Shown here: one piece after another, positions 1 through 9,011 of the stretch | How positions within the stretch are numbered: position 1 is the stretch's first letter | Layout: each line of letters starts with the position of its first letter | Origin: a virus | IMG/VR virus record: IMGVR_UViG_3300035180_002381 | Location: 1 to 22,190 of that record | DNA: 22,190 nt | Strand: one strand, 5' to 3' | Program-made: the position numbers and the translations under genes | The notes under the pieces: generated by a model | Told to the model about the DNA's origin: nothing | The model's database searches: none | Seen by the model: the letters and a program-made list of their open reading frames with translations, nothing else

Positions 1-191
1 CCTTCATATGATTTAGCAACGACAAAAATCAATGGAATATTTAATGCCTTACTAATTCGATTTGCAGCATAATATCCAACTCGCAATACTGTGACTACAT
101 GGGTGAACTTATAATTTGAATCTTTGATTTTGTCAATCAATTGATCGCAAAGTGTATTGTATTCATTCCAGCTTACATATCGTTTTTTCAT
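1..191 (-). CDS. Phosphoribosyltransferase-like protein (N-terminal part, runs off window)
   Basis: The reading frame starts at ATG 191 and stays open to the window edge (63 codons). It opens MKKRYVSWNEYNTLCDQL. A stretch near residues 33-60 reads VVTVLRVGYYAANRISKALN followed by IPLIFVV. This matches the first strand/helix/strand of type I phosphoribosyltransferases, especially the COG2236-like group common in phages, where an R-x-G-x-x-x-A motif precedes a short hydrophobic strand. The PRPP-binding loop would lie beyond the window. Family members transfer a phosphoribosyl group between a base and PRPP; the substrate cannot be told here. The Shine-Dalgarno is weak (GTGAG). It is the last gene seen of the leftward series. 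Assignment rests on pattern recognition. Confidence 0.6.
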   Translation of the reverse strand, partial: MKKRYVSWNEYNTLCDQLIDKIKDSNYKFTHVVTVLRVGYYAANRISKALNIPLIFVVAKSYE

Positions 192-217
192 TTCTATTCT
201 CACTTTTCTTACTTACT

Positions 218-607
218 TTAATCAACGTAAGACCAAACATGAACACCCATAATTCCGTACTGTTCAAAGACCTTCTTTTCTGCTTCTACACAAGCAATTT
301 GCAATCCATATTCTTGACGAAGTTTGTATCTATGATAGATCTCAACAACTTTATTGTTGTTTGACCGAATCAATCCAGCTTTAACAAATGTTTTATAGTC
401 TGCTGAGCGTCCATCCTTGAATTGAAGATGAGCGTTTCCACAGATATCAAGCATCGTTCCCAATGAAGGGCCTTTAATGTTACCGAATAAATCGGCATTG
501 TGAACAGAAAACTGAGGTTTAGCATTTTTTATCCATTCTTCACCAGCTGAATTCGCTGCATTGATGGCTTCTTGAACTACTTGTTTAGGATCATAATTGA
601 TAGACAT
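218..607 (-). CDS. Hypothetical phage protein, 129 aa
   Basis: I chose the second of two adjacent ATGs (607) because AGGAG lies 6 bases upstream; the ATG at 610 is also possible. A longer frame reaches 655 but would run into the tRNA-Leu gene. The product begins MSINYDPKQVVQEAINAANS and is soluble and mixed-charge. It has no membrane segment, signal peptide or motif I recognise. The C-terminal half is conserved-looking (RYKLRQEYG, ending GVHVWSYVD). It sits between tRNA-Leu(TAA) and the phosphoribosyltransferase-like gene and probably shares their transcript. Function unknown. Confidence 0.75.
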   Translation of the reverse strand: MSINYDPKQVVQEAINAANSAGEEWIKNAKPQFSVHNADLFGNIKGPSLGTMLDICGNAHLQFKDGRSADYKTFVKAGLIRSNNNKVVEIYHRYKLRQEYGLQIACVEAEKKVFEQYGIMGVHVWSYVD

Positions 608-647
608 CATAATCTCCTCTGGTATGATCAGTAGTGTGTTATATTTT

Positions 648-732
648 TGGTGCACGCAGAGGGACTCGAACCCTCAATCCTAAAAGGCGGCAGATTTTAA
701 GTCTGCTGTGTATACCATTCCACCACACGTGC
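648..732 (-). tRNA. tRNA-Leu (anticodon TAA)
   Basis: Cloverleaf with a 7-bp acceptor stem (GCACGTG paired with TGCGTGC, including two G-T pairs). The anticodon arm is GCAGA-CTTAAAA-TCTGC, giving anticodon TAA. There is a long variable region, a T-arm with GGTTCGAGTCC, discriminator A and an encoded CCA. It reads TTA and TTG. It is separated from the other tRNAs of the window by the left-hand protein genes. Confidence 0.95.
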
Positions 733-757
733 AACCTTGATATTTTATGTCAAGGTT
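733..757 (-). other. Hairpin just upstream of tRNA-Leu(TAA)
   Basis: An 8-bp perfect inverted repeat (AACCTTGA / TCAAGGTT) with a 9-base AT-rich loop lies between the end of the 107-aa gene and the 5' end of the tRNA. In the minus-strand RNA no U-run follows, so it is not an intrinsic terminator. It may be a processing or stabilising stem for the tRNA 5' leader; that role is inference. Confidence 0.4.
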
Positions 758-767
758 TGAATGTTCA

Positions 768-1091
768 TTACAGTTCAACCGCGTTTTCAATCTTCACGAA
801 ACGACCAGCCACGTCACGGTACATGTTGGGTTTGTCAGTAGGAACAACTACCATGATATCCTTGACGTGCTTTGCTGTCAATTTCACAACATAACGAACC
901 CAGTCTTTCAGAGCGTTACCGATGTCACGTTCAGCTGCCCAGCGCTTTGTACGACGAACTGTAGATTTTGCTACTACTGATTGATTGAAGTTCTTCACCG
1001 AACCAGTGTTAGCAACAACGTAAACCTTCCGTTTATTTCCTTCACCGACAACCAGAGTAGTTGAAACGAAAGTAGCGATATTGTCTTTCAT
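768..1091 (-). CDS. Hypothetical basic phage protein, 107 aa
   Basis: Start ATG 1091 has a good Shine-Dalgarno (AAGGAG, 6 bases before the ATG). The product is basic in the middle (STVRRTKRWAAERD) and rich in beta-prone Val-Thr stretches (VSTTLVVGEG, RKVYVVANTGS). It has no signal peptide or membrane helix. It could bind nucleic acid, but no named domain is visible. It is the first gene after the promoter at 1148-1177 and lies directly upstream of tRNA-Leu(TAA), which may be co-transcribed. Confidence 0.75.
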   Translation of the reverse strand: MKDNIATFVSTTLVVGEGNKRKVYVVANTGSVKNFNQSVVAKSTVRRTKRWAAERDIGNALKDWVRYVVKLTAKHVKDIMVVVPTDKPNMYRDVAGRFVKIENAVEL

Positions 1092-1147
1092 GTCGTTCTC
1101 CTTGATTAGTCATTTAAGATAACTTCATTTATCATTGAAGTTAAGTC

Positions 1148-1177
1148 ATTATAAACAAAATTACGTAAAAAGTAAAC
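1148..1177 (-). promoter_or_regulatory. Sigma70-like early promoter
   Basis: On the minus strand GTTTACT (-35 TTTACT, 1171-1176) and TATAAT (-10, 1148-1153) are 17 bp apart. An A/T-rich tract lies upstream. About 37 bases around it are identical to the promoter at 2403-2432. It would drive the 107-aa gene at 1091. The GTTTAC -35 resembles that of T-even early promoters. Confidence 0.75.
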
Positions 1178-1215
1178 AAGTTTTGTTCATTTGTTTTCGC
1201 TACGATAGTCGTTTG

Positions 1216-1470
1216 TCAAGCATTATCTACTACAATTGAAGGAACCTCGCCTTGCTTAAAGGACGCAAGCAGAAATTCATACTCCTTTAAACCGCTAGAT
1301 ACGTCACCAACATCCCAGCCCATCCACATGACTTCCACTTTTGGATATCCTTCCTCAAACCAATCATCAGGCCTCGATGATGCATCTTGGGCATAAACCA
1401 AAATCCAATTGCCATTATCAACTCGCGTAAAATAATATTGGTTCGGTTTTAGATCTTTTGCGGTTAACAT
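1216..1470 (-). CDS. Hypothetical acidic protein, 84 aa
   Basis: ATG 1470 has GAGG about 8 bases upstream. The product MLTAKDLKPNQYYFTRVDNG begins with a pattern (lead-in, then strands with Trp/Tyr: NWILVYAQD, KVEVMWMGWDVGD) resembling small beta-barrel or OB/SH3-like phage proteins. It is acidic, with no Cys, signal peptide or membrane segment. It is followed by the promoter at 1148-1177. Function unknown. Confidence 0.7.
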   Translation of the reverse strand: MLTAKDLKPNQYYFTRVDNGNWILVYAQDASSRPDDWFEEGYPKVEVMWMGWDVGDVSSGLKEYEFLLASFKQGEVPSIVVDNA

Positions 1471-1492
1471 CTTTTTGTCCTCAAGAACTTTT

Positions 1493-1705
1493 TTATCGTC
1501 CCATGCCTCTAAAAATGCGTCGAGAGAGCTGAAGACGACGCTTCATGTTTTCAGGGGGAACTGAAGAAAAGAATGGCAAATTATATTCGCCTGTGGCAAA
1601 CTCATTTCCGCATTCCGACATACGAACAAAATTCATCTTCGATCCTTTATCGTCGGCATCAGCTGTTGCGAACTTTATAAATGGGACTTGTTGATATTTG
1701 TACAT
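1493..1705 (-). CDS. Hypothetical protein, 70 aa
   Basis: ATG 1705 is preceded by GGAG at about 8 bases. The N-terminal half is neutral (MYKYQQVPFIKFATADADDK). The C-terminal end is strongly basic (MKRRLQLSRRIFRGMGR), as in many small phage nucleic-acid-binding proteins, but no family is recognised. It follows the truncated beta-helix copy by about 20 bases and is probably in the same transcript. Confidence 0.65.
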   Translation of the reverse strand: MYKYQQVPFIKFATADADDKGSKMNFVRMSECGNEFATGEYNLPFFSSVPPENMKRRLQLSRRIFRGMGR

Positions 1706-1726
1706 TTTCTATTCTCCTTCATTGTG

Positions 1727-2002
1727 TTAGAAAACAACTTTACTCAACGTCTTCGGGGCAAGTCCAGGTTTCTTATTGTTACCACGTGGTGGCTTATTGA
1801 TCTCCGTGTTCCCCCCCCGAACCTTTATGTTCCCATAGATCTTTGATTCCCCAGAAACACGTGCGTTGTCAAACACCATTGAGTCATCGTAAATCCACGA
1901 ATTTCCAGCTTGGGACAAATTTGCTTTGGATGCAACCCAACCACCAAGATCTCCAACTTTAACATCATTGAAGTCTTTTAGTGCTCGGATTAGATAAAGT
2001 CC
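1727..2002 (-). pseudogene. Truncated second copy of the YdcK-like beta-helix gene
   Basis: The open frame starts right after an in-frame stop at 2003-2005 and has no ATG; the only near-start is a TTG at 1918. Its translation (LYLIRALKDFNDVKVGDLGG, then WVASKANLSQAGNSWIYDD, ending KKPGLAPKTLSKVVF) aligns throughout with the complete copy at 1990-2343. It lacks the first ~13 residues and one 12-residue repeat unit (GNAKVFDNARIS). It is in a different frame from the end of the upstream copy, whose stop overlaps its first codons. It carries a run of eight G (minus strand) near 1811-1818 where the other copy has three. It is most likely a decaying tandem duplicate, though reinitiation or frameshifting from the upstream copy cannot be excluded. 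Confidence 0.7.
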
Positions 2003-2343
2003 TTAAACATTGTAAACGACTTTGCCTTCGGGGCAAGTCCAGGTTTCTTATTGTTAACACGTGGCTTATTGATCTCCGTGTGCCCACAAATCTTCATGCT
2101 CCCATAGATCTTTGATTCCCCAGAAATACGTGCGTTGTCAAAAACCTTTGCGTTCCCAGAAACACGTGCGTTGTCAAACACCATTGAGTCATCGTAAATC
2201 CATGCGTTTCCATCTTGGGACAAATTTGCTTCGGATGCAACCCAACCACCAAGATCTCCGGCTTTAACATCATTGAAATCTTTTAGTGCTCGGATTCGGT
2301 AAAGCCCTTGTTCGTTCTTGATATCTGTCAATTCATATTTCAT
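1990..2343 (-). CDS. YdcK-like beta-helix (hexapeptide-repeat) protein, 117 aa
   Basis: ATG 2343 follows GAAGGA about 9 bases upstream. Residues 1-42 (MKYELTDIKNEQGLYRIRAL, then KDFNDVKAGDLGGWVASEANL) form a lead-in found in bacterial YdcK-type proteins. Residues 43-84 are short repeats (GNAWIYDDSMVFDNARVSGN, then AKVFDNARISGESKIYG) typical of left-handed beta-helices of the hexapeptide or polymer-forming type. The tail is basic and low-complexity (NNKKPGLAP). No acetyltransferase active site is evident, so the role is probably structural or binding. It is first after the promoter at 2403-2432, and its 3' end overlaps the truncated duplicate. Confidence 0.75.
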   Translation of the reverse strand: MKYELTDIKNEQGLYRIRALKDFNDVKAGDLGGWVASEANLSQDGNAWIYDDSMVFDNARVSGNAKVFDNARISGESKIYGSMKICGHTEINKPRVNNKKPGLAPKAKSFTMFKDFI

Positions 2344-2402
2344 TTTCTATTTTCCTTCGTCACTGATTGTCAAGGTTTAAATATTTAAGATAACTTAAAG
2401 TT

Positions 2403-2432
2403 ATTATAAACAAAATTACGTAAAAAGTAAAC
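2403..2432 (-). promoter_or_regulatory. Sigma70-like early promoter (copy of the 1148 promoter)
   Basis: -35 TTTACT at 2426-2431 and -10 TATAAT at 2403-2408, 17-bp spacer, on the minus strand. The whole core is identical to the promoter at 1148-1177, and both are followed by the same AAGTTATCTTAAAT-like leader. It would drive the beta-helix gene at 2343. Confidence 0.75.
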
Positions 2433-2440
2433 AAGTTTTG

Positions 2441-2448
2441 AATAAATA
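2441..2448 (+). promoter_or_regulatory. Possible T4-type late promoter for the plus-strand gene
   Basis: AATAAATA matches 7 of 8 bases of the T4 late consensus TATAAATA. It lies 23 bases before the GTG start of the only plus-strand gene. T4 late promoters need little beyond this octamer, so chance occurrence in AT-rich DNA is possible. Confidence 0.4.
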
Positions 2449-2470
2449 TTCATTTAAATGAGTAAACGCC

Positions 2471-2737
2471 GTGAAAATCCATGAAATTTTAGTAGAACGA
2501 GTTTCTCAATCACTTTCTGATCAAGTAAAGTGGTCTAATTCTGTTAAAGAAATGTATCATCGTTCGGGTAATAAACATCCGATCAAGTTTATCAAGACAA
2601 AGAACGGAAATATCACTTATGCTGTAGATAATTCTGGATTGGGTGTAATACATGCTTATGGAGAATGGAACGAGAAAGATGAAGAGGGAATCGTCTACGA
2701 CATTAGACGACGTCTAAATAAGAACACAGACTTCTAA
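2471..2737 (+). CDS. Hypothetical protein with capsid-targeting-like N-terminus, 88 aa
   Basis: The start is GTG 2471, with only a weak GAG upstream. It reads MKIHEILVERVSQSLSDQVK and then a compact mixed alpha/beta sequence (NGNITYAVDNSGLGVIHAYG, then EWNEKDEEGIVYDIRRRLN). It is oriented against every other gene and may have its own late promoter. The first nine residues resemble the capsid-targeting peptides of T4 internal proteins, and LVE fits the L/I-x-E cleavage rule of the T4 prohead protease. If so, it would be packaged in the head and injected; that is inference. It converges with the GIY-YIG gene. No domain is recognised in the body. Confidence 0.7.
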   Translation: MKIHEILVERVSQSLSDQVKWSNSVKEMYHRSGNKHPIKFIKTKNGNITYAVDNSGLGVIHAYGEWNEKDEEGIVYDIRRRLNKNTDF

Positions 2738-2787
2738 AGATCTTTCAGTTTCATTATTTGTCTTGGATATTATTGATGTGTATAACT

Positions 2788-3501
2788 TTAAAAGTTAATT
2801 TTTCTACCTTTAGTCCATCCTTCAATTAAATATTTTTCTATATCTTCTCTTTTAATTTTCTTACTACGTTTAAGAGATATATTAAAAATCCAACAAGTAT
2901 TATATTGAGAATTTTTATCACCTTGTTGATGATTTATTGCTTTTAACGTATTTTTTCTTTTTTCGTTTGATTCTTGAGAATTTGCAGCAATAATTGCTCT
3001 ATTAGTAATCTCTAACATTAATTTTCGATTAGTTCTCCATAGTCCCTTAAAAGCTTTAGCTCCACCCTTTTTACAGCCATCATTTATTCTTTTTAAAGAA
3101 TCATCTGAGAGTTTATCAAGATTTGCAAATCCTCCAAGCTTTCCTAGATTAAAATAATGTTCCTTGGTCAATTTTTTATTACATCCAACCCAGCTACCAT
3201 CTCCACCCAATGTTAAATTCATACACATTGGATCAACCAACATTTCTTCATTTATTAATTCACGTTCACGTTTCTTTAAACTTTCTCGATCAGAACAAAA
3301 CTCTAAGATCTCTATCTTAAAATTCTCTCGTCCATACTTCTTGATTGAGCGCCATAGTCTTGTACCTGATCCGACGTATCCATCCTCAAGATTATCAGTT
3401 GAGTGCATTCCATAGTAGTACTTTCCATTTACTTGACAAGTTGTCTTGTAGATGAAGTGATATTTCTTTGGGTTAACATACCAATTTTGCTTCTTTTCCA
3501 T
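2788..3501 (-). CDS. GIY-YIG homing endonuclease (Seg-like), 237 aa
   Basis: Residues 16-31 (FIYKTTCQVNGKYYYG) carry the GIY-YIG signature in its Y-Y-G variant. It is followed by GYVGSGTRLWRSIKKYGREN (41-60) with the catalytic-type arginine region, and a Glu cluster (INEEM, 83-87). The segment LNLGKLGG...SNEKRKNTLKAI is typical of NUMOD3-like DNA-binding repeats. The C-terminus GDKNSQYNTCWI plus a basic helix (KKIKREDIEKYLIEGWTKGR) resembles the recognition tail of T4 Seg enzymes. Such enzymes nick or cut a recipient genome so that their gene and its flanks spread. It lies directly downstream of tRNA-Trp. ATG 3501 has a GGAG Shine-Dalgarno held inside a hairpin with an overlapping late promoter (3502-3535), implying late-only translation. 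It is paralogous to the gene at 4475. Confidence 0.92.
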   Translation of the reverse strand: MEKKQNWYVNPKKYHFIYKTTCQVNGKYYYGMHSTDNLEDGYVGSGTRLWRSIKKYGRENFKIEILEFCSDRESLKKRERELINEEMLVDPMCMNLTLGGDGSWVGCNKKLTKEHYFNLGKLGGFANLDKLSDDSLKRINDGCKKGGAKAFKGLWRTNRKLMLEITNRAIIAANSQESNEKRKNTLKAINHQQGDKNSQYNTCWIFNISLKRSKKIKREDIEKYLIEGWTKGRKINF

Positions 3502-3535
3502 GTCTCATACTCCAGTTGGGAGTATTTATAGAGAC
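3502..3535 (-). promoter_or_regulatory. Late promoter plus Shine-Dalgarno-sequestering hairpin for the GIY-YIG gene
   Basis: A perfect late promoter octamer TATAAATA occupies 3530-3523 on the minus strand. In RNA arriving from upstream, ATACTCC (3525-3519) pairs with GGAGTAT (3513-3507) across a 5-base loop, and GTCTC (3535-3531) can pair with GAGAC (3506-3502). GGAG is the ribosome binding site of the ATG at 3501, so it is buried. A transcript started at the late promoter would begin near 3517, inside the loop. It would lack the left arm and leave the site free. Confidence 0.8.
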
Positions 3536-3553
3536 ACAAAAAAAAGTTACATG

Positions 3554-3625
3554 CAGAGGACGAGGGACTTGAACCCCCAAGACAGGTTTTGGAGACCTGC
3601 ATGTTACCAATTACATCAGTCCTCT
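3554..3625 (-). tRNA. tRNA-Trp (anticodon CCA)
   Basis: The acceptor stem AGAGGAC pairs with GTCCTCT. The anticodon arm CAGGT-CTCCAAA-ACCTG gives anticodon CCA. The T-arm is GGGGGTTCAAGTCCCTC and the discriminator is G. CCA is not encoded (CAT follows), so the 3' end must be added. It lies between the ADP-ribosyltransferase-like fragment and the GIY-YIG gene. Confidence 0.95.
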
Positions 3626-3633
3626 TTGTTACG

Positions 3634-3795
3634 TTACGTAATGTTACCTTTTAATAACCCACTCTTATGCCAATTATTAGCATCTTTTGTGTTTACTGAA
3701 AACCATGCAGGACCTTGCTTAAATTTATCAAATTGTTCAGAACTTGAATGATAAACTGTTTTACTGATGGATTCAAATATTTCAATAATTTTCAT
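3634..3795 (-). CDS. Short ADP-ribosyltransferase-like fragment with capsid-targeting-like N-terminus, 53 aa
   Basis: The ORF begins ATG 3795 and reads MKIIEIFESISKTVYHSSSE, then QFDKFKQGPAWFSVNTKDAN. The pattern V-Y-H-S-S, F-x-x-F, then a W-F-S-V-N-T strand and A-N-N-W resembles the NAD-binding start of many ADP-ribosyltransferase-fold domains (V-Y-H-G-T ... F-F-T/S ... A). It stops after 53 residues, far short of a full domain, 9 bases before the tRNA-Trp gene. It is therefore probably a remnant cut off by rearrangement. MKIIEIFES parallels MKIHEILVE of the plus-strand gene, and IFE fits the T4 prohead protease rule. T4 Alt is an injected ADP-ribosyltransferase, which makes the comparison tempting. 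The assignment is tentative. Confidence 0.5.
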   Translation of the reverse strand: MKIIEIFESISKTVYHSSSEQFDKFKQGPAWFSVNTKDANNWHKSGLLKGNIT

Positions 3796-3896
3796 TAGAT
3801 CTTCGTGATGTTTCTGGAGACTTCATTGTTCTGCCGCGAACATATCTTTCTTGTACAAACTTTTCTAATTGATCAAGTTTGTTTTTAAGTGAAATT

Positions 3897-4475
3897 TTAT
3901 CTTTTTACCCAACATGTACCAAACTGAGAATTTTTTGAACCTAATTGTGAATCTTTTCTAGCATCAGACATCTTTTGTTTGGTTTTTCCGAGTGTGATTT
4001 GCCAAAAAACTTTGCTTGGGATGAATGTTTCATTTGCAACTTTATTTCTTAAAATATCTCCAACCTTTTTCAGCTTTTCATTTAATTCTTTTCGTTTATC
4101 ACTTCCATTTGGGTGATTTTTAGAAGCAGCAATTCCACCAGTTCTTGCAACAATAATTCGTTGTTCTTCTGTAAGAGTTGCATTCACATAAACCCAACTT
4201 CCTCTACCACCACACGTCAAGTTGTAGACATCATCTCTTCCTACAAACTCTTCATTTACAAGTCGTGCTTCTTCAGCAAACATCTCCTCAGGTGTCTCGT
4301 GAGTACTCAAGATCTCTTTCTTGAAGTTCTCAATGCCATATTTCTTCTTAGCATAACCGAGTTGCTTCCCTGATCCCATGTAGCTGTCATTCATGTCTTT
4401 TGTCATGTGACAGCCGATGTAGATCTTGCCGTTGACCAAATTGGTCAGTTGGTACACTAGATAGTAAATTTTCAT
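3897..4475 (-). CDS. GIY-YIG homing endonuclease, C-terminus lost by a frameshift (192 aa)
   Basis: I start it at ATG 4475 (MKIYYLVYQLTNLVNGKIYI); the frame runs to 4547 but upstream residues are encoded by tRNA-Ser. GIY-YIG signature: residues 5-21 (YLVYQLTNLVNGKIYIG), then YMGSGKQLGYAKKKYGIENF and the Glu-rich FAEEARLVNEEF. The frame ends ...NSQFGTCWVKR at a run of five A (3906-3902). Removing one A restores a frame continuing 39 residues to a stop at 3782 (DKISLKNKLDQLEKFVQERY, then VRGRTM...). That gives about 230 residues, close to the 237 of the paralogue, with the same basic C-terminal helix. The gene is thus a recent frameshift mutant, a slippage-dependent gene, or a sequencing error. 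A CATAAATA late promoter lies 5 bases before the ATG and there is no Shine-Dalgarno. Confidence 0.85.
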   Translation of the reverse strand: MKIYYLVYQLTNLVNGKIYIGCHMTKDMNDSYMGSGKQLGYAKKKYGIENFKKEILSTHETPEEMFAEEARLVNEEFVGRDDVYNLTCGGRGSWVYVNATLTEEQRIIVARTGGIAASKNHPNGSDKRKELNEKLKKVGDILRNKVANETFIPSKVFWQITLGKTKQKMSDARKDSQLGSKNSQFGTCWVKR

Positions 4476-4480
4476 GCAAG

Positions 4481-4488
4481 TATTTATG
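4481..4488 (-). promoter_or_regulatory. Late promoter giving a possibly leaderless mRNA
   Basis: CATAAATA (7 of 8 to TATAAATA) is followed by exactly five bases (CTTGC) and then the ATG at 4475. In T4 the octamer covers about -13 to -6, so transcription would begin at or next to the A of the start codon. Confidence 0.6.
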
Positions 4489-4515
4489 CACGAGTAACTT
4501 TCTAGTGTCCAGATG

Positions 4516-4600
4516 CGGAAGTTGTGAGATTCGAACTCACGGAACATTTCTGTTCGGCAGTTTTCAAGACTGCTGGTTTAAACCACTCACCCAAACTTCC
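4516..4600 (-). tRNA. tRNA-Ser (anticodon TGA)
   Basis: The acceptor stem GGAAGTT pairs with AACTTCC. The anticodon loop CTTGAAA gives anticodon TGA. A long variable arm (GAACAGAAATGTTC) is present as expected for Ser. The T-arm is GTGAGTTCGAATCTCAC and the discriminator G is right for tRNA-Ser. CCA is not encoded. It reads TCA and probably other TCN codons. Confidence 0.95.
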
Positions 4601-4614
4601 GTTGCATTTTATGT

Positions 4615-4848
4615 CTAACTCACGGATGCGACAAATTTCAGCACCCGTTCACGCTCCGCAATAAAAGCATTGCGAATTAGCTGAGCATTATGATCCACCT
4701 GCTCTGGTGAGGCCATTTCTACCTCACAAGTAGGGCAATAATAACACTGTAGCCCATCTACCGTAATATTGATTCCCTTGTAAAGCATATCTCGCGTATA
4801 GCTTCGCGTCTGTAAATCACTTTGTTCACAAAATTGACATACGCTCAT
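4615..4848 (-). CDS. YgiT/MqsA-type zinc-finger protein, 77 aa
   Basis: The protein starts MSVCQFCEQSDLQTRSYTRD and continues with an ITVDGLQCYYCPTCEVEM segment. The pairs C4-x2-C7 and C35-x2-C38 (with C41) plus the strand pattern match the N-terminal zinc-binding domain of MqsA/YgiT antitoxins. That domain binds the toxin partner. The C-terminal helix-turn-helix of MqsA is absent, and the protein ends in a short helix. No MqsR-like toxin gene is adjacent. A free-standing antitoxin-like domain in a phage could neutralise a host toxin, or simply be a small zinc protein. The Shine-Dalgarno is distant (AGGA at about 9-12), and a GATAAATA late-promoter-like octamer lies at 4891-4898. Confidence 0.75.
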   Translation of the reverse strand: MSVCQFCEQSDLQTRSYTRDMLYKGINITVDGLQCYYCPTCEVEMASPEQVDHNAQLIRNAFIAERERVLKFVASVS

Positions 4849-4890
4849 TACATTTATCCTAGTGAACCAAGCTTTATGTGTAACACATCA

Positions 4891-4898
4891 TATTTATC
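4891..4898 (-). promoter_or_regulatory. Possible late promoter for the zinc-finger gene
   Basis: GATAAATA on the minus strand (7 of 8 to the T4 late octamer), 43 bases upstream of the ATG at 4848. An inverted repeat ATGTG-TTA-CACAT follows at 4876-4888. The match alone is not conclusive in AT-rich DNA. Confidence 0.3.
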
Positions 4899-4901
4899 TT
4901 T

Positions 4902-4992
4902 GGTACTTCATGGAGGAATCGAACCCAGATCTTAAGTTACCTTTGGTTCAGATCATCCATGTGTTGTTCAATCGAACGTTGCGTTTCAAGTC
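4902..4992 (-). pseudogene. tRNA-like remnant (3' half only recognisable)
   Basis: The minus strand has a T-arm-like GGGTTCGATTCC, then ATGAAGT, a discriminator A and an encoded CCA, as at a tRNA 3' end. A 5' partner (ACTTGAA, about 4986-4992) pairs with only five of seven acceptor positions. No proper anticodon arm can be drawn, and the T-stem has two mismatches. It overlaps the end of the 48-aa gene. It is probably a decayed tRNA, and no anticodon can be assigned. Confidence 0.35.
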
Positions 4993-5132
4993 ACCCAATG
5001 ATACTTCCTTTTTAGATATGTGTTCTGTATGGTTTCAGAAATCATGTGCGCCTTTGCAATATCAAATTCAATAATCCTTAATACTTCTTCTCCAGGTGGA
5101 GCAAAGCACACAAGTTCACTTTTATGTCGCAT
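4986..5132 (-). CDS. Hypothetical small protein, 48 aa
   Basis: ATG 5132 opens a frame reading MRHKSELVCFAPPGEEVLRI, then IEFDIAKAHMISETIQNTYL and KRKYHWVT. The sequence has convincing protein character: a short strand, then a long amphipathic helix. The Shine-Dalgarno is poor (a GTG one codon earlier is an alternative). It lies between tRNA-Leu(TAG) and the tRNA-like remnant. No family recognised. Confidence 0.5.
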   Translation of the reverse strand: MRHKSELVCFAPPGEEVLRIIEFDIAKAHMISETIQNTYLKRKYHWVT

Positions 5133-5175
5133 CACACTTTTACCATCAAGTTTTCAACCATCAAAAGAATATATT

Positions 5176-5259
5176 TGGTGCGAGAGGAGGGACTTGAACC
5201 CTCAATCCTTTCGGCACTGGTTTCTAAGACCAGCGTGTATGCCATTCCACCACTCTCGC
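5176..5259 (-). tRNA. tRNA-Leu (anticodon TAG)
   Basis: The acceptor GCGAGAG pairs with CTCTCGC. The anticodon arm CTGGT-CTTAGAA-ACCAG gives anticodon TAG. It has a variable arm, a T-arm GAGGGTTCAAGTCCCTC, discriminator A and an encoded CCA. It reads CTA and probably other CTN codons. It is the first gene after structured element 1 and the promoter at 5480. Confidence 0.95.
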
Positions 5260-5263
5260 TTTG

Positions 5264-5457
5264 TAAGATAGCTTTGAAAGGTGCCACTGATCTGACTTAA
5301 AGCAGGGATCTAGTTCCTTTTCGCTTTGGTTTGCACCCTCAGCTATCTACTCCTTCTGACTAAGGCGTTTGTTTTACCTGTGTAACAGTCAGATCACACA
5401 GTTTGTCAAACCTTTTATATTTAAGTCAGATCAGTGACACCTTTCAAATCTATCTTA
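5264..5457 (-). ncRNA. Structured element 1: 38-bp stem closing a 118-base loop, promoter-proximal
   Basis: Arms at 5264-5301 and 5420-5457 are complementary over 38 bases with two exceptions; in minus-strand RNA one of these is a G-U pair, which favours transcription from that strand. Its 5' arm begins about 16 bases after the expected start site of the promoter at 5480. Inside are a hairpin CTGTGT/ACACAG and further copies of the arm motif GATCTGACT, allowing alternative pairings. No ATG occurs in the minus-strand sequence, arguing against coding. It shares the string CGAAAAGGAA and the arm core CAGATCAG with element 2. T4 also encodes stable RNAs of unknown role (C and D) in its tRNA region; equivalence is only a suggestion. 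Confidence 0.65.
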
Positions 5458-5479
5458 ATTTTAAAGAACAATTTAAGTC

Positions 5480-5508
5480 ATTATATCACAATGCTTAAAA
5501 AAGTAAAC
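5480..5508 (-). promoter_or_regulatory. Sigma70-like early promoter for element 1 and tRNA-Leu(TAG)
   Basis: -35 TTTACT at 5502-5507 and -10 TATAAT at 5480-5485 with a 16-bp spacer on the minus strand. It lies 23 bases upstream of the first base of element 1. Confidence 0.75.
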
Positions 5509-5521
5509 TACTTTTATCTCT

Positions 5522-5548
5522 CTTTAGATGCTGGATATTCTTCTTTTT
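5522..5548. repeat. 27-bp direct repeat, left copy (right copy at 5682-5708)
   Basis: A 27-base stretch is identical at 5522-5548 and 5682-5708. The right copy codes for the C-terminal residues of the 50-aa gene. The left copy is noncoding. The two copies bracket tRNA-Tyr. Confidence 0.9.
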
Positions 5549-5558
5549 GTTACACAGG

Positions 5559-5646
5559 TGGGTCTCGGCTAGAATCGAACTGCATGCCTTGAAGGGAGAG
5601 CTTTACAGGCTCCTGACGGTACCAACCATCCTTACTTGCGAGACCC
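5559..5646 (-). tRNA. tRNA-Tyr (anticodon GTA)
   Basis: The acceptor GGGTCTC pairs with GAGACCC. The anticodon arm GGAGC-CTGTAAA-GCTCT gives anticodon GTA. It has the long variable arm expected of bacterial tRNA-Tyr, a T-arm GCAGTTCGATTCTAGC (imperfect outer pair) and discriminator A. CCA is not encoded. It is flanked by the 27-bp direct repeats. Confidence 0.93.
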
Positions 5647-5652
5647 AAAACT

Positions 5653-5805
5653 TTAATAGCTTTCTTTTATGACAGAATATCCTTTAGATGCTGGATATTC
5701 TTCTTTTTTTGCTTTTAGTAGATCATTTGCTTCTTTCACTGTCAAACATTTTTTGTTAAGAAGTGTTTCATAACCCTTCATTACGATCACATACCAGCTT
5801 TTCAT
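5653..5805 (-). CDS. Hypothetical small protein, 50 aa
   Basis: I start at ATG 5805, preceded by GAGGA at about 8 bases; the frame is open to 5844 but that part lacks a ribosome site. The product MKSWYVIVMKGYETLLNKKC, then LTVKEANDLLKAKKEEYPAS, has a first strand, a turn and a helix. This is the layout of many short phage proteins that begin with an aromatic-rich strand. Its last codons are duplicated at 5522-5548. It lies 6 bases upstream of tRNA-Tyr. Function unknown. Confidence 0.7.
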   Translation of the reverse strand: MKSWYVIVMKGYETLLNKKCLTVKEANDLLKAKKEEYPASKGYSVIKESY

Positions 5806-5866
5806 AATTTCATTCCTCGTAAAAGAATATACATTATAACACATTTATGTGACAGTGAATAATTAT

Positions 5867-5943
5867 TGGTGAGTTGTGTAGGAATCGGAACTAGCCGCTC
5901 TCGGGGTTACAACCCGGGGCCCTACCATTAAGGCGTACAACTC
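5867..5943 (-). tRNA. Degenerate tRNA-like gene, loop reads GTA; identity uncertain
   Basis: A perfect acceptor stem (GAGTTGT / ACAACTC), discriminator A, encoded CCA and a good D-arm (GCCTTAATGGTAGGGC) are visible. The anticodon stem has four G-C pairs around the loop TTGTAAC, which by position reads GTA. However, the variable loop is short, unlike class II tRNA-Tyr. The T-arm (CTAGTTCCGATTCCTAC) is disrupted, as if one base was inserted and one stem side altered. It may be a pseudo-tRNA or a tRNA whose anticodon has shifted. It should not be given an amino acid without aminoacylation data. Confidence 0.6.
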
Positions 5944-5984
5944 ATGAATTGTATCATCTTCCACTGATTCTATGATGGTTTGGG

Positions 5985-6071
5985 CAGAAGTGTGCAGAAT
6001 CGAACTGCAACCCGTTTCCGGGTCGATCCGCTTAGCAGGCGGTCCTGAGTACCAATCTCAGATACACTTCT
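5985..6071 (-). tRNA. tRNA-Ser (anticodon GCT)
   Basis: The acceptor AGAAGTG pairs with CACTTCT. The anticodon arm ACCGC-CTGCTAA-GCGG gives anticodon GCT. A long variable arm (ACCCGGAAACGGGT) is present. The T-arm is TGCAGTTCGATTCTGCA and the discriminator G fits Ser. CCA is not encoded. It reads AGC and AGT. It is the first tRNA downstream of the putative attenuator. Confidence 0.95.
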
Positions 6072-6107
6072 AAAAACTCTAAATTGTTAATGAACATTTT
6101 GCTTCTG

Positions 6108-6138
6108 AAAAAACAAAGGCTTCCTATTCGGAAGCCTT
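6108..6138 (-). terminator. Intrinsic terminator in front of the tRNA cluster
   Basis: In minus-strand RNA AAGGCTTCC (6138-6130), loop GAATA, GGAAGCCTT (6124-6116) form a 9-bp perfect stem followed by TGTTTTTT. It lies 37 bases before tRNA-Ser(GCT). Its 5' arm overlaps a sequence that can instead pair upstream (see 6134-6192), so termination could be conditional. Confidence 0.8.
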
Positions 6139-6192
6139 AGCTGTTTAAATTCTGTATGAACTTACATCATTCAGTCACCAAATAGCTAAGGC
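6134..6192 (-). promoter_or_regulatory. Putative antiterminator helix competing with the terminator
   Basis: GCCTTAGCTATTT (6192-6180, inside the leader ORF) is complementary to AAACAGCTAAGGC (6146-6134) in 12 of 13 positions. The latter contains the first five bases of the terminator's 5' arm, so the two helices cannot coexist. This is the layout of amino-acid-operon attenuators. Confidence 0.65.
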
Positions 6193-6256
6193 CTCGTCCC
6201 CACAAATATGAGGATAGATACGATAAGCTACTAAGATATGAATTAAAGTTTTTCAT
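6167..6256 (-). CDS. Putative attenuator leader peptide rich in Ser, Tyr, Leu, Trp (29 aa)
   Basis: ATG 6256 to TGA 6167. Residues 6-19 read SYLSSLSYLSSYLW; 18 of 29 residues are Ser, Tyr, Leu or Trp. Codons in that run: Ser TCA (twice), AGT, AGC, TCG, TCC; Tyr TAT (three times); Leu CTT, TTA, CTA, TTG; Trp TGG. These include the exact cognates of all six intact tRNAs of the downstream cluster. Residues 22-26 (GLSYL) overlie the antiterminator arm. No Shine-Dalgarno precedes the ATG, but a perfect TATAAATA octamer ends five bases before it, predicting a leaderless late transcript. I infer a sensing peptide: ribosomes stalled in the run would permit antitermination into the tRNA genes. No homologue is known to me. 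Confidence 0.7.
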   Translation of the reverse strand: MKNFNSYLSSLSYLSSYLWGRGLSYLVTE

Positions 6257-6261
6257 GATGA

Positions 6262-6269
6262 TATTTATA
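6262..6269 (-). promoter_or_regulatory. Late promoter for the leader ORF and tRNA cluster
   Basis: Perfect TATAAATA on the minus strand, then TCATC and the ATG at 6256. The 5-base gap is the same as at the GIY-YIG gene at 4475, so transcription would start at the start codon. Confidence 0.65.
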
Positions 6270-6339
6270 TGTGAGCAACAATTTCCAATAAGTGAAAGAA
6301 GCAGCTATTACTTGAACGTCCTTTGTTCAACCTCTTTTA

Positions 6340-6527
6340 CAAGTTATACAGATCAGAGGTTAACTCCTACTATTTCCCTGGCCAGCTACTCTAGTAGTTC
6401 TGCCTCTTCAAGACGTCACGGGTCAAGTCTATGGCTTCTTTTAAGAAAGGTTTTCTTATCGTACTGCTACTTCCTTTTCGAAGGGAAGTTTTCTATTCCG
6501 ACGTAACCTCTGATCTGTATATCCTTG
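6340..6527 (-). ncRNA. Structured element 2: 22-bp stem closing about 140 bases, promoter-proximal
   Basis: An 18-base perfect inverted repeat (6345-6362 with 6504-6521) is extended by CAAG/CTTG (6340-6343 with 6524-6527) after a small internal loop. The interior has hairpins such as ACTTCC/GGAAGT (6469-6489) and CTAC/GTAG near 6387. Its 5' end is only a few bases after the expected start of the promoter at 6541. No ATG occurs on the minus strand within it. An 83-codon plus-strand frame crosses it but has no coding character. It shares CGAAAAGGAA and CAGATCAG with element 1. A small hairpin TTGAAC/GTTCAA (6312-6330) follows it. Confidence 0.6.
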
Positions 6528-6540
6528 ATTCAATAAGATC

Positions 6541-6570
6541 ATTATAATATTAGTCAGTACAAAAGTAAAC
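6541..6570 (-). promoter_or_regulatory. Sigma70-like early promoter for element 2 and the tRNA region
   Basis: -35 TTTACT at 6564-6569, -10 TATAAT at 6541-6546, 17-bp spacer on the minus strand. The GTTTAC core is shared with the other early promoters of the window. Confidence 0.75.
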
Positions 6571-6592
6571 ATTCAAGTTACTGTATTAGTTT

Positions 6593-6607
6593 TGACCAAC
6601 TTGGTCA
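6593..6607. promoter_or_regulatory. 15-base palindrome upstream of the element 2 promoter
   Basis: TGACCAA-C-TTGGTCA is a perfect odd palindrome centred at 6600, about 31 bases upstream of the -35 start. It could be an operator or activator site. The rest of 6608-6749 shows only an AT-rich inverted repeat (AATGTTA / TAACATT near 6694-6715) and no gene. Confidence 0.35.
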
Positions 6608-6749
6608 GGCACTTTCATGTCAATAAGTTTCATAACTACATTCATCATTTGATCCTTATTTTAACAGAGTGATTCTGAGCTTAATCGATCTCCAATGTTA
6701 ATATGTTATAACATTGTACATAATCAAATAATAGCTTGATTACAGAATA

Positions 6750-6956
6750 TTAGTAAAGCGCGTTAAGTAGTCGTTTTAACCTACTGATTTCAATCTCATA
6801 AGTTGTGCTTTCACAGATTGATTGAAGAATTTGACGATCGTGTTCAAGCTCTTCAATTCTACTGTTTAAGATCTTATTTTGAGACGTTAATAGTTCTGTC
6901 TGATTTGTTAAAATGTCAATTTCTTCTAGCAATTGTTTATGTGTTTTATATTCCAT
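6750..6956 (-). CDS. Small coiled-coil protein, 68 aa
   Basis: I start at ATG 6956 (MEYKTHKQLLEEIDILTNQT), which overlaps the end of the upstream gene by 11 bases and suggests translational coupling; a longer frame from 7052 lies wholly inside that gene. Residues 7-60 show heptad spacing of Leu/Ile (LLEEIDILTNQTELLTSQNK, then ILNSRIEELEHDRQILQ) with polar positions between. This is a classic coiled coil, probably dimeric. Unknown role; such short proteins often act as anti-host or adaptor factors. Confidence 0.7.
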   Translation of the reverse strand: MEYKTHKQLLEEIDILTNQTELLTSQNKILNSRIEELEHDRQILQSICESTTYEIEISRLKRLLNALY

Positions 6957-7209
6957 TTCGTTTACTTTCTTCTCGTTCAATCCACAATTGAGTGTTTTCA
7001 AGTAATAAGTACGAAAGAACTGCGACCAACGTATGTTCTTTTCCTGATTCACTTAATTGAGGATCATTCATTGTTTCATGATACTTTTCCATCATGTTTA
7101 AGATTGCGATGCTCTTGACTGAGTCATAATTGATATTTTCCCAGTCAAGAGGTTTTTCATCGGCGATCACGTCAACAAGCTCTGAGATCATTTCATAATC
7201 AATTGACAT
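6946..7209 (-). CDS. Hypothetical acidic helical protein, 87 aa
   Basis: Start chosen at ATG 7209 (MSIDYEMISELVDVIADEKP), overlapping the HNH stop by 11 bases; an ATG at 7233 exists without ribosome site. The sequence is acidic and helical (SVKSIAILNMMEKYHETMND, then KEHTLVAVLSYLLLENTQLW). There is no membrane segment: the hydrophobic stretch is broken by Glu/Asn. It is in a three-gene coupled set with the HNH endonuclease and the coiled-coil protein. Family not recognised. Confidence 0.7.
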   Translation of the reverse strand: MSIDYEMISELVDVIADEKPLDWENINYDSVKSIAILNMMEKYHETMNDPQLSESGKEHTLVAVLSYLLLENTQLWIEREESKRNGI

Positions 7210-7882
7210 AAGATGTCTCAGTGAAGTGATCATGAGCGTAAAGACTAGAAGAGTTTAAGTTATCACCGAATTTGCTAATAGCATAGTCAAATATTCTTGA
7301 GCTTTTATTCTTTACCCTTTCAAGAAGAAACTTCATTTGATCTATTTTAACGTTTCTATTTTTCATCAAAAGGTGCTCAGCTTTACAAGGAACATATGGA
7401 ACATACAGCAAGTCAATCTTTCCTGTCAACTGAGGACCTAACATCCCAAAAGGTAGCTTGTGTCCAGGAAGAGTGTCACCCTTCATAGAGTTACAATCCT
7501 TACAAGACGTAACAACATTCATCCAAATGTCACGTCCACCTTTTGACTGCGGATAAATGTGGTCACGAGTTAAATCGCTAGTCTTAAATACATCACCACA
7601 GTAAGCACAGATAAAGAGATCACGCTGGAACAACCCATGATTTGTTAGGACAGGATCATGATGATACTTGCGCGGATTAGGAGCGCCGTCAACTACTATG
7701 ATTGAACTTGTTTCGATAAAAGAGCGCTGTCCTGTGATTCGATTAGTACCACCGTGATAGATCACGATTGATTCACCGAGACGATCCACTACAAGCTCTT
7801 TGCTCTCAAGCACGATCGCATCTTCAACAGAGACCCAGCGATGTGGTTGATAATTTTTGTCAAGTGTCAAGATAGATGACAT
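7199..7882 (-). CDS. HNH endonuclease (McrA/HNH_5-like), 227 aa
   Basis: ATG 7882 has GGAG 6 bases upstream. Residues 1-66 form the N-terminal domain seen in many phage HNH proteins (ILTLDKNYQPHRWVSVEDAI). The nuclease core follows: zinc ligands C92-x2-C95 (ICAYCG), the DH of DHIYPQSKGG (107-116) with the catalytic His, N122, and C127-x2-C130-N-x-x-KGD. The C-terminal ~90 residues are helical and basic. Such enzymes are DNA nickases or cutters. In T4-like phages they are usually free-standing homing endonucleases, but a role in DNA processing is possible. It follows rIIB after a terminator. Confidence 0.9.
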   Translation of the reverse strand: MSSILTLDKNYQPHRWVSVEDAIVLESKELVVDRLGESIVIYHGGTNRITGQRSFIETSSIIVVDGAPNPRKYHHDPVLTNHGLFQRDLFICAYCGDVFKTSDLTRDHIYPQSKGGRDIWMNVVTSCKDCNSMKGDTLPGHKLPFGMLGPQLTGKIDLLYVPYVPCKAEHLLMKNRNVKIDQMKFLLERVKNKSSRIFDYAISKFGDNLNSSSLYAHDHFTETSYVN

Positions 7883-7928
7883 ACCATTCTCCGTTCTAAT
7901 TCTATATAAATTACTATTTACAAATTAA

Positions 7929-7954
7929 AATGGGTGGTCATTTGACCACCCATT
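7929..7954 (-). terminator. Intrinsic terminator after rIIB
   Basis: A 12-bp perfect stem (AATGGGTGGTCA / TGACCACCCATT) with a 2-base loop, followed on the minus strand by TTAATTTG. It lies 20 bases after the rIIB stop and before the HNH gene. The U-tract is short, so some read-through is likely. Confidence 0.75.
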
Positions 7955-7973
7955 CAAGAAAACTAACTAACAA

Positions 7974-9011
7974 TTAGCTCTTCTCAAGCTCAGCGATCTT
8001 AGCTTTTATTGCAGCACGAACTGACTTTGTTTCAAATGACATGATTTGAGCATCACTACTAGGATCACTCCAATCTACAACAACCTTTTCACCTGTCGCC
8101 CTTGTGATAATCCGAGCTTTTCCGTTTTTTACAAGGTTCCAAGCTTCTGCTGTCTTCAGCAAGCTGGGTTTCAGCGAGGGTTCAAATACAACTTCAGGTG
8201 CTGCAGCTTCTTTGCTATTTTCATCAATAAACGAATCTTTGAACGCATCAACCGTTTGGTTATTCTTGCTCTTGTATTCACCCACAACAAAGTATTCACT
8301 AGCACGGCCCTTTTGACAGTTGTAATCGCGCGGAATCGCAAATACGTGACATGGATTCACCTTTACGATTACAATCTTGAATTTATCGATAGTTCTGTAC
8401 TTTGACAAGTAACCGATCGAAGCAAAGTGCAAACCACGAGAACACTCATTGTTACGGTTGGTGTCAACTTCAGCTTGCGGCATCATCACAACTTCACCTG
8501 GAGCATTGTTCATCTTTCCAGTGAAGATGTCAAAGTAGTCAAAACGAACTTTCTTGTATGCCAAGAAACAACCATCATAAGTGATCGGAGTCTTACCTGA
8601 CATCAAGAACTCATACAGTTCTTCACGAATATCCTTAAGCTTGTTCTTCATGATGTTGTTAAGGAACGCTAACAGCGCATCAGCATACTTTTCAAATGAA
8701 GGTTTACCCAAGTCATCAATGATCCGATTGACTAGAGCACCGTGTAGTTCATGTGATTTCTTGTGAGAGTCAATATAAAAGACCTTTCCGTTATCAACAT
8801 AGACACGTTGTCCCTCAAACTTCTTACTGATCCCTGCAGAATTGATTGCATCTTTGATGCTCATCAACTTTTCAACTTCTTCAAACTTAGCATTCTTCAA
8901 CGCGTCAAGGATCTTTGAGAAATTAGGATGAGTGTTGGAAACTGTGCTCTGTTTTCCATCCTTCATCAAGGTCAACCCACTGTCATGTCTAGTGTAAAAG
9001 ATGTTTCTCAT
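7974..9011 (-). CDS. rIIB: rIIB-like protein, 345 aa
   Basis: The central block, residues 146-202 (YDGCFLAYKKV, DIFTGKMNNAPGEVVMMPQA, then CSRGLHFASIGYL), is the conserved region of T4 RIIB. It is followed by strands KIVIVKVNPCHVFAIPRDYN and a KGRASEYFVVGEY segment. The length is somewhat above T4 RIIB (about 312 aa). The N-terminus differs from T4 and lacks its helix-turn-helix-like start. RIIB is needed with RIIA for growth on lambda lysogens (RexAB exclusion); its molecular action is unsettled. ATG 9011 has AGAGGA 7 bases upstream, inside a 32-base sequence also found before the 74-aa gene. Normally rIIB follows rIIA directly; here a gene and a remnant intervene. Confidence 0.92.
   Translation of the reverse strand: MRNIFYTRHDSGLTLMKDGKQSTVSNTHPNFSKILDALKNAKFEEVEKLMSIKDAINSAGISKKFEGQRVYVDNGKVFYIDSHKKSHELHGALVNRIIDDLGKPSFEKYADALLAFLNNIMKNKLKDIREELYEFLMSGKTPITYDGCFLAYKKVRFDYFDIFTGKMNNAPGEVVMMPQAEVDTNRNNECSRGLHFASIGYLSKYRTIDKFKIVIVKVNPCHVFAIPRDYNCQKGRASEYFVVGEYKSKNNQTVDAFKDSFIDENSKEAAAPEVVFEPSLKPSLLKTAEAWNLVKNGKARIITRATGEKVVVDWSDPSSDAQIMSFETKSVRAAIKAKIAELEKS

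Follow-up and report, generated by a model that had tools for sequence, protein, structure and literature searches.

Is a phage tRNA cluster switched on by a shortage of the very tRNAs that it encodes? This question is raised by a 22,190-base virus record (referred to as the window, i.e., the whole stretch of DNA that was analysed), a piece of a jumbo-type phage genome carrying genes for rIIA, rIIB, an HNH endonuclease, a helicase, dihydrofolate reductase and an ATP-grasp protein, the last being ~40% identical to its counterparts in large Xanthomonas and Stenotrophomonas phages. All relevant window genes are located on the minus strand. The original prediction placed a leader-peptide attenuator ahead of the tRNA cluster, with a 29-codon ORF at 6256-6167 in which codons 6-19 all specify Ser, Tyr, Leu or Trp. 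Both the ORF and the 14-codon run are borne out by the sequence and its codon readout:

6167..6256, minus strand: leader ORF of 29 codons, translated as MKNFNSYLSSLSYLSSYLWGRGLSYLVTE followed by a stop codon (sequence; corresponding ORFs in five relatives)
6200..6241, minus strand: control codons 6-19, SYLSSLSYLSSYLW (sequence; background-run count)

The run reads TCA TAT CTT AGT AGC TTA TCG TAT CTA TCC TCA TAT TTG TGG and, with Ser spelled by five of its six codons and Leu by four, it is not a DNA repeat. The four amino acids account for 20.6% of the codons in window genes, which gives a chance of 0.206^14 = 2.5e-10 for a run of 14. Downstream of the leader lie the tRNA genes whose cognate codons (AGC, TAT, CTA, TCA, TGG and TTA) had been claimed for the run, and all six codons are present in it:

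5981..6072, minus strand: tRNA-Ser(GCT) (ARAGORN default)
5870..5943, minus strand: tRNA-Tyr(GTA), with a weak model score (24.4 bits; ARAGORN at 85% threshold)
5176..5259, minus strand: tRNA-Leu(TAG) (ARAGORN and Rfam)
4515..4600, minus strand: tRNA-Ser(TGA) (ARAGORN and Rfam)
3553..3625, minus strand: tRNA-Trp(CCA) (ARAGORN and Rfam)
648..732, minus strand: tRNA-Leu(TAA) (ARAGORN and Rfam)

The description of these as six intact tRNAs stands for the five that ARAGORN finds by default, but the Tyr(GTA) gene (5943-5870) is a weak call, below the Rfam cut-off of 29 bits and found by ARAGORN only at the 85% threshold. Two unusual genes resembling tRNA-Tyr(GTA), similar to each other and odd in their D arm, lie at 5559-5633 (minus strand) of the window and at ~7889-7975 of locus L131, which belongs to one of the relatives introduced below (G008). 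Between tRNA-Leu and tRNA-Ser, a 77-aa zinc-finger-like protein is encoded at 4615-4848 (minus strand), with weak similarity to the MqsA antitoxin (E 5.5e-4, below the Pfam cut-off). Homing endonucleases adjoin tRNA genes at 2788-3501 and 3897-4547 (minus strand), the first of them with a TATAAATA box at 3530-3523.

In attenuation of the trp type, described in outline in PMC1183508, a stalled ribosome chooses between an antiterminator and a terminator. The corresponding elements of the window are as follows:

6226..6243, minus strand: segment 1, the control-codon stretch pairing with 6187-6169 if the ribosome is absent (MFE fold)
6180..6192, minus strand: segment 2, the antiterminator 5' arm, codons 22-26 of the leader (duplex energy, masking, covariation)
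6134..6146, minus strand: segment 3, the antiterminator 3' arm, overlapping the 5' arm of the terminator (duplex energy, masking, covariation)
6116..6138, minus strand: intrinsic terminator hairpin (segment 3:4), 9 bp (terminator search)
6108..6115, minus strand: terminator T-tract (terminator search)

The claimed 9-bp terminator with its T-run was recovered, the stem (6138-6116) being followed by TGTTTTTT, and tRNA-Ser(GCT) begins ~35 nt past the complete element (6138-6108). The antiterminator (6192-6180 with 6146-6134) was likewise confirmed, with 12 of 13 positions paired and with its first arm inside the ORF as codons 22-26, and it gains 5 bp when extended to 6196-6177 / 6149-6130. Its duplex energy is -21.0 kcal/mol, a value reached by none of 2,000 dinucleotide shuffles, and among 2,000 synonymous recodings of the same leader peptide a single one paired as well. 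New with respect to the original prediction is a fold-back of the control-codon region on the antiterminator arm (1:2 helix), for which support is modest, since 75 of 2,000 synonymous recodings matched it; with this reservation, helices 1:2, 2:3 and 3:4 follow the layout of the trp attenuator.

If these helices act as they do in trp, plentiful charged Ser-, Leu-, Tyr- and Trp-tRNA would let the ribosome traverse the leader and cover segment 2, upon which the terminator would form and the tRNA genes would not be transcribed. Scarcity of any one of the four charged tRNAs would stall the ribosome within the run, leaving segment 2 to pair with segment 3 and RNA polymerase to continue into the tRNAs, and the newly made tRNAs would relieve the shortage in an end-product feedback. 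Such a device would amount to a protein-free OR-gate.

Single-protein searches with rIIB, HNH and rIIA returned in effect one relative, the near-identical contig L002, which differs from the window at 4 positions over 11 kb and at none in the leader. Independent lineages were recruited by rIIB alignment, followed by alignment of the adjacent HNH gene. As a result, five further lineages were obtained, namely G007 (345 kb), G008 (80 kb), G009 (389 kb), G010 (55 kb) and G011 (113 kb), with identities to the window of 40-56% for rIIB (not found beside G010) and 50-63% for HNH. All six lineages are metagenome contigs and several are fragments. A 90-kb contig, G012, has the same leader as G011, and two last scans of viral sequences yielded zero additional lineages. 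Among the candidates that were set aside, the phages of the DUF4343 ATP-grasp alignment have that gene in common with the window, but not the leader/tRNA locus, and Salicola phage SCTP-2 has the HNH gene in common, within an annotated neighbourhood without rII genes or tRNAs. In a genome-contig scan with HNH, the homologues were mostly betaproteobacterial, which is a hint at a host group of that affiliation.

In each relative, a short ATG ORF is found at the corresponding site, followed by a terminator and then by tRNAs. The leader peptides are:

G007: MKTTSSLYLSLLSSSYLWTKSLSDCEKPGI
G008: MKNFVSLLSLSYWSLSYLGQGLDVPTEGWDL
G009: MTNVLSLSLSWSLSSYLGERP
G010: MKTTLLSYLSLLLSSSYWLTMSPSCLEGINKV
G011: MKNTSLSYLSSSSLYSDGGFCMIG

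All six leaders keep their start and a run composed of S, L, Y and W only, whereas the residue order and the C-terminal part vary. The segment just 3' of the run pairs strongly with the terminator 5' arm in all six, with 0 to 13 of 1,000 shuffles doing as well. Within the nine-position core of arms 2 and 3, positions 1-7 are paired in all six phages, and two-sided (compensatory) differences occur at positions 3, 4, 6, 7 and 8. The comparison with related phages that the original prediction had proposed thus shows leader codons and helices that are kept and co-vary in five independent relatives. Leu, Tyr and Ser codons are favoured by AT-rich DNA, and a low-complexity run could in principle lie next to a terminator by chance; however, the run occupies the same place in 6/6 lineages and, in 3.77 Mb of non-family loci read in six frames, only four S/L/Y/W runs of at least 11 were found, none of them within a short ORF. 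The probability left to this explanation is negligible, the comparison of the six lineages having already refuted it. Another possibility is that the ORF is a gene for a small membrane protein followed by an ordinary terminator, with self-promoted tRNAs and an incidental complementarity, as promoter-like sites inside the cluster (5507-5480) might suggest. We regard it as highly improbable, given that the C-terminal halves are not conserved, that arm 2, which lies in the ORF, and the terminator arm co-vary across the six phages, and that so few synonymous recodings (1/2000) pair equally.

Ribosome positions were modelled by placing a ribosome codon by codon in silico, with its leading edge at the first nt of the A-site codon plus 12. 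The antiterminator stays fully available until the A site comes to the last few control codons; masking starts within the last one to three of these, and the antiterminator is lost over the next few codons beyond them (6/6 for both). The run therefore ends where stalling would cease being useful. In G010, equilibrium favours the terminator over the antiterminator, and switching in this phage must therefore be kinetic. Taken together, four features of a trp-type attenuator are found here: a leader ORF with a run of cognate codons in six phages, an intrinsic terminator ahead of the first tRNA, an exclusive antiterminator whose 5' arm can be masked by the ribosome (based on shuffles, synonymous recoding and covariation), and, in silico in 6/6, a stall at the control codons that leaves the antiterminator arm free. 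The attenuator reading, supported by the five relatives, the helix covariation and the masking, is very probably correct, and the phage tRNA operon would be subject to ribosome-mediated transcription attenuation.

The attenuated clusters (ARAGORN, 85% threshold) contain Ser, Leu, Tyr and Trp tRNAs almost exclusively. As an example, the G009 cluster comprises Leu CAA, CAG, TAG and GAG, Ser GGA, TGA, CGA and GCT, Tyr, and Trp twice; the clusters of G007, G008, G009 and G010 also contain a few low-scoring tRNA-like predictions for other amino acids. In the two phages read for this purpose, G007 and G009, a separate main cluster of ~40 tRNAs serves the remaining 16 amino acids. From the main cluster of G007, Ser, Leu, Tyr and Trp are all absent, and that of G009 includes a lone Ser(TGA) call, a doubtful one of 73 nt in which the long variable arm is missing. 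In other jumbo phages (XacN1, RAS14, X1 and G013), the tRNAs for these four amino acids are mixed among the others. The original prediction had also proposed to compare leader codons with tRNA content. The G011 leader has no Trp codon, and no Trp tRNA was found down to E<=1 in the region searched of this partial genome, so that the sole cluster lacking a Trp tRNA belongs to the sole leader lacking a Trp codon. On a partial genome, this appears to be one natural test that the attenuator has passed. The same observation bears on nascent-peptide arrest of the SecM/ErmL type, in which a hydrophobic S/L/Y/W peptide would itself stall the ribosome in response to a signal such as a drug or the membrane state. 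Leaders of this kind likewise precede attenuators, and the six peptides are hydrophobic and aromatic; but arrest peptides require specific residues and the six keep their composition only, not the residue order, and in G011 the Trp codons are lost together with the Trp tRNAs. We consider arrest very unlikely.

Several other RNA genes accompany these clusters. tRNA-like genes are found upstream of the leader in G008 (L131 7417-7493) and G010 (L253 14262-14336), and anticodon-CTA (amber-reading) tRNAs at L236 6917-6992, L241 13181-13255 and L270 7047-7205 (G007, G009 and XacN1). Inside the G008 cluster there is an RNase P RNA-like match (L131 10108-10500, 72.9 bits, E 3e-20, below the gathering score). 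Genes or pieces of tmRNA lie downstream of attenuated clusters (L131 18408-18737, L251 16867-17214 and L132 11938-12235), two of them matching the betaproteobacterial two-piece type; in G008 the tmRNA follows the leader at ~11 kb, a downstream tmRNA is also present in G011, and G009 has two weak pieces. The RNase P RNA-like match and the tmRNAs would fit a theme of translation rescue.

Upstream of the leader lie the following features:

6541..6569, minus strand: early-type promoter TTTACT-17-TATAAT (consensus match only)
6345..6521, minus strand: structured RNA with an 18-bp perfect closing helix, in the promoter-to-leader interval (fold z -3.9)
6262..6269, minus strand: TATAAATA box, T4-late-type (sequence; relatives)

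The promoter at 6541..6569 is one of several GTTTACTTTT...TATAAT sites that recur ahead of other genes of the window phage. A second structured RNA is located at 5264-5457 (minus strand; 38 bp helix 95% paired, fold z -8.6). Both RNAs are ~180-190 nt long, each directly follows a TTTACT/TATAAT promoter, and neither has a match in Rfam. The TATAAATA box, whose sequence is that of the T4 late promoter core, stands 5 nt ahead of the AUG in the window and at a distance of 8 nt in G007, G008 and G010; G011 has the variant box TGTAAATA at 13 nt, and in G009 a TTTACT...TATAGT just upstream of the leader takes its place. In the family phages, 16 of 26 copies of TATAAATA are within 70 nt upstream of ORFs, compared with 15% of words that match the box in composition; in the window alone the box is chance-like, and it is credible only across relatives. 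With the T4 spacing, the window transcript would start with the A of its AUG, and the transcripts of G007, G008 and G010 would start 3 nt ahead of theirs. No Shine-Dalgarno is present ahead of the leader in any of the six phages, while most other window genes have one, and translation of the leader would therefore rest on leaderless initiation or on an unseen signal. More weakly, we infer that the leader mRNA is leaderless, or nearly so, and is made from a T4-late-like TATAAATA promoter.

Which natural event would trip the switch? Ser, Leu and Tyr tRNAs are the class II tRNAs of bacteria. A defence targeting long variable arms could deplete this tRNA set, though it would not account for Trp. 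Host tRNA-Tyr is known to be cleaved in its variable loop, with phage tRNAs as a counter-defence (PMC13096335, PMC11555353), and tRNAs supplied by phages stand in for host tRNAs lost to defence (PMC11555353, PMC13096335, PMC10264068). The trigger that we favour, at close to an even chance, is destruction of tRNAs by host defence. The phage tRNAs would then be replacements, like the tRNA-Tyr of T5/SP15 against retron-Eco7 and that of T6 against Septu; in those cases the supply comes from strong promoters or gene amplification, whereas here it would be demand-driven through the attenuator. Alternatively, the same attenuator might respond to Ser/Leu/Tyr/Trp starvation and not to tRNA loss, as a general supply response comparable to trp, his and ilv. 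Leader stalling alone cannot separate uncharged from missing tRNA, and ORFs with weak similarity to prephenate dehydrogenase (PDH_N, E 2.5e-4 and 2.6e-3, both short of the Pfam cut-off) are found in the clusters of G007 (L051 18555-19175) and G010 (L253 11805-12020, minus strand). Against this, the regulated genes are tRNAs, which do not make up for a lack of amino acids; the cluster ORFs that were inspected (a minority of them family-searched) included no recognised gene for the synthesis of serine, leucine or tryptophan; and the amino-acid set follows tRNA structure class (II plus Trp) and not biosynthetic family. Starvation is, in our view, an unlikely signal, and destruction of host tRNAs is retained as the candidate trigger in what follows.

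Attenuators are known from the amino-acid operons trp, his, leu, ilvGMEDA and thr, and the pheST leader controls an aminoacyl-tRNA synthetase. With these five operons, the phage device shares the short leader ORF, the cognate control codons and the helix switch by a stalled ribosome, and with ilv and thr the use of several amino acids in one leader. The novelty originally claimed for a multi-amino-acid leader on a tRNA cluster holds in part: such leaders are known (ilvGMEDA, thr), but no earlier case on tRNA genes, and no report of such a phage tRNA attenuator, was found in the open-access literature, most subscription papers being outside this scope. Unlike the five operons and pheST, the phage device would control tRNA genes and not enzymes, in a virus and for four amino acids. 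Unlike the amino-acid operons, its leader has no Shine-Dalgarno and is apparently leaderless, and what it yields would be the same molecule whose scarcity it senses. T-box riboswitches also attenuate transcription upon tRNA shortage, by binding uncharged tRNA directly, whereas in the phage the ribosome would be the sensor; the T-box model has no match in the window at the gathering score, nor in 1-7300 at E<=5. The Rfam Trp, His, Leu and Thr leader models have no match at the leaders of the window and the five relatives.

The purpose of phage tRNAs has been debated for decades. Tentatively, and with slightly less than even confidence, we propose a jumbo-phage family in which a cluster for 16 amino acids is complemented by a second, attenuated cluster for class II (Ser, Leu, Tyr) plus Trp, and in which a leaderless, protein-free ribosome sensor would read the destruction of host tRNAs by defence and switch on their replacements. 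If true, tRNA shortage during infection would be a selective pressure, class II and Trp tRNAs would be pointed to as those under attack, and attenuation would reach beyond the operons for amino-acid biosynthesis and synthetases, where it is known, to tRNA genes, to viruses and to apparently leaderless mRNA.
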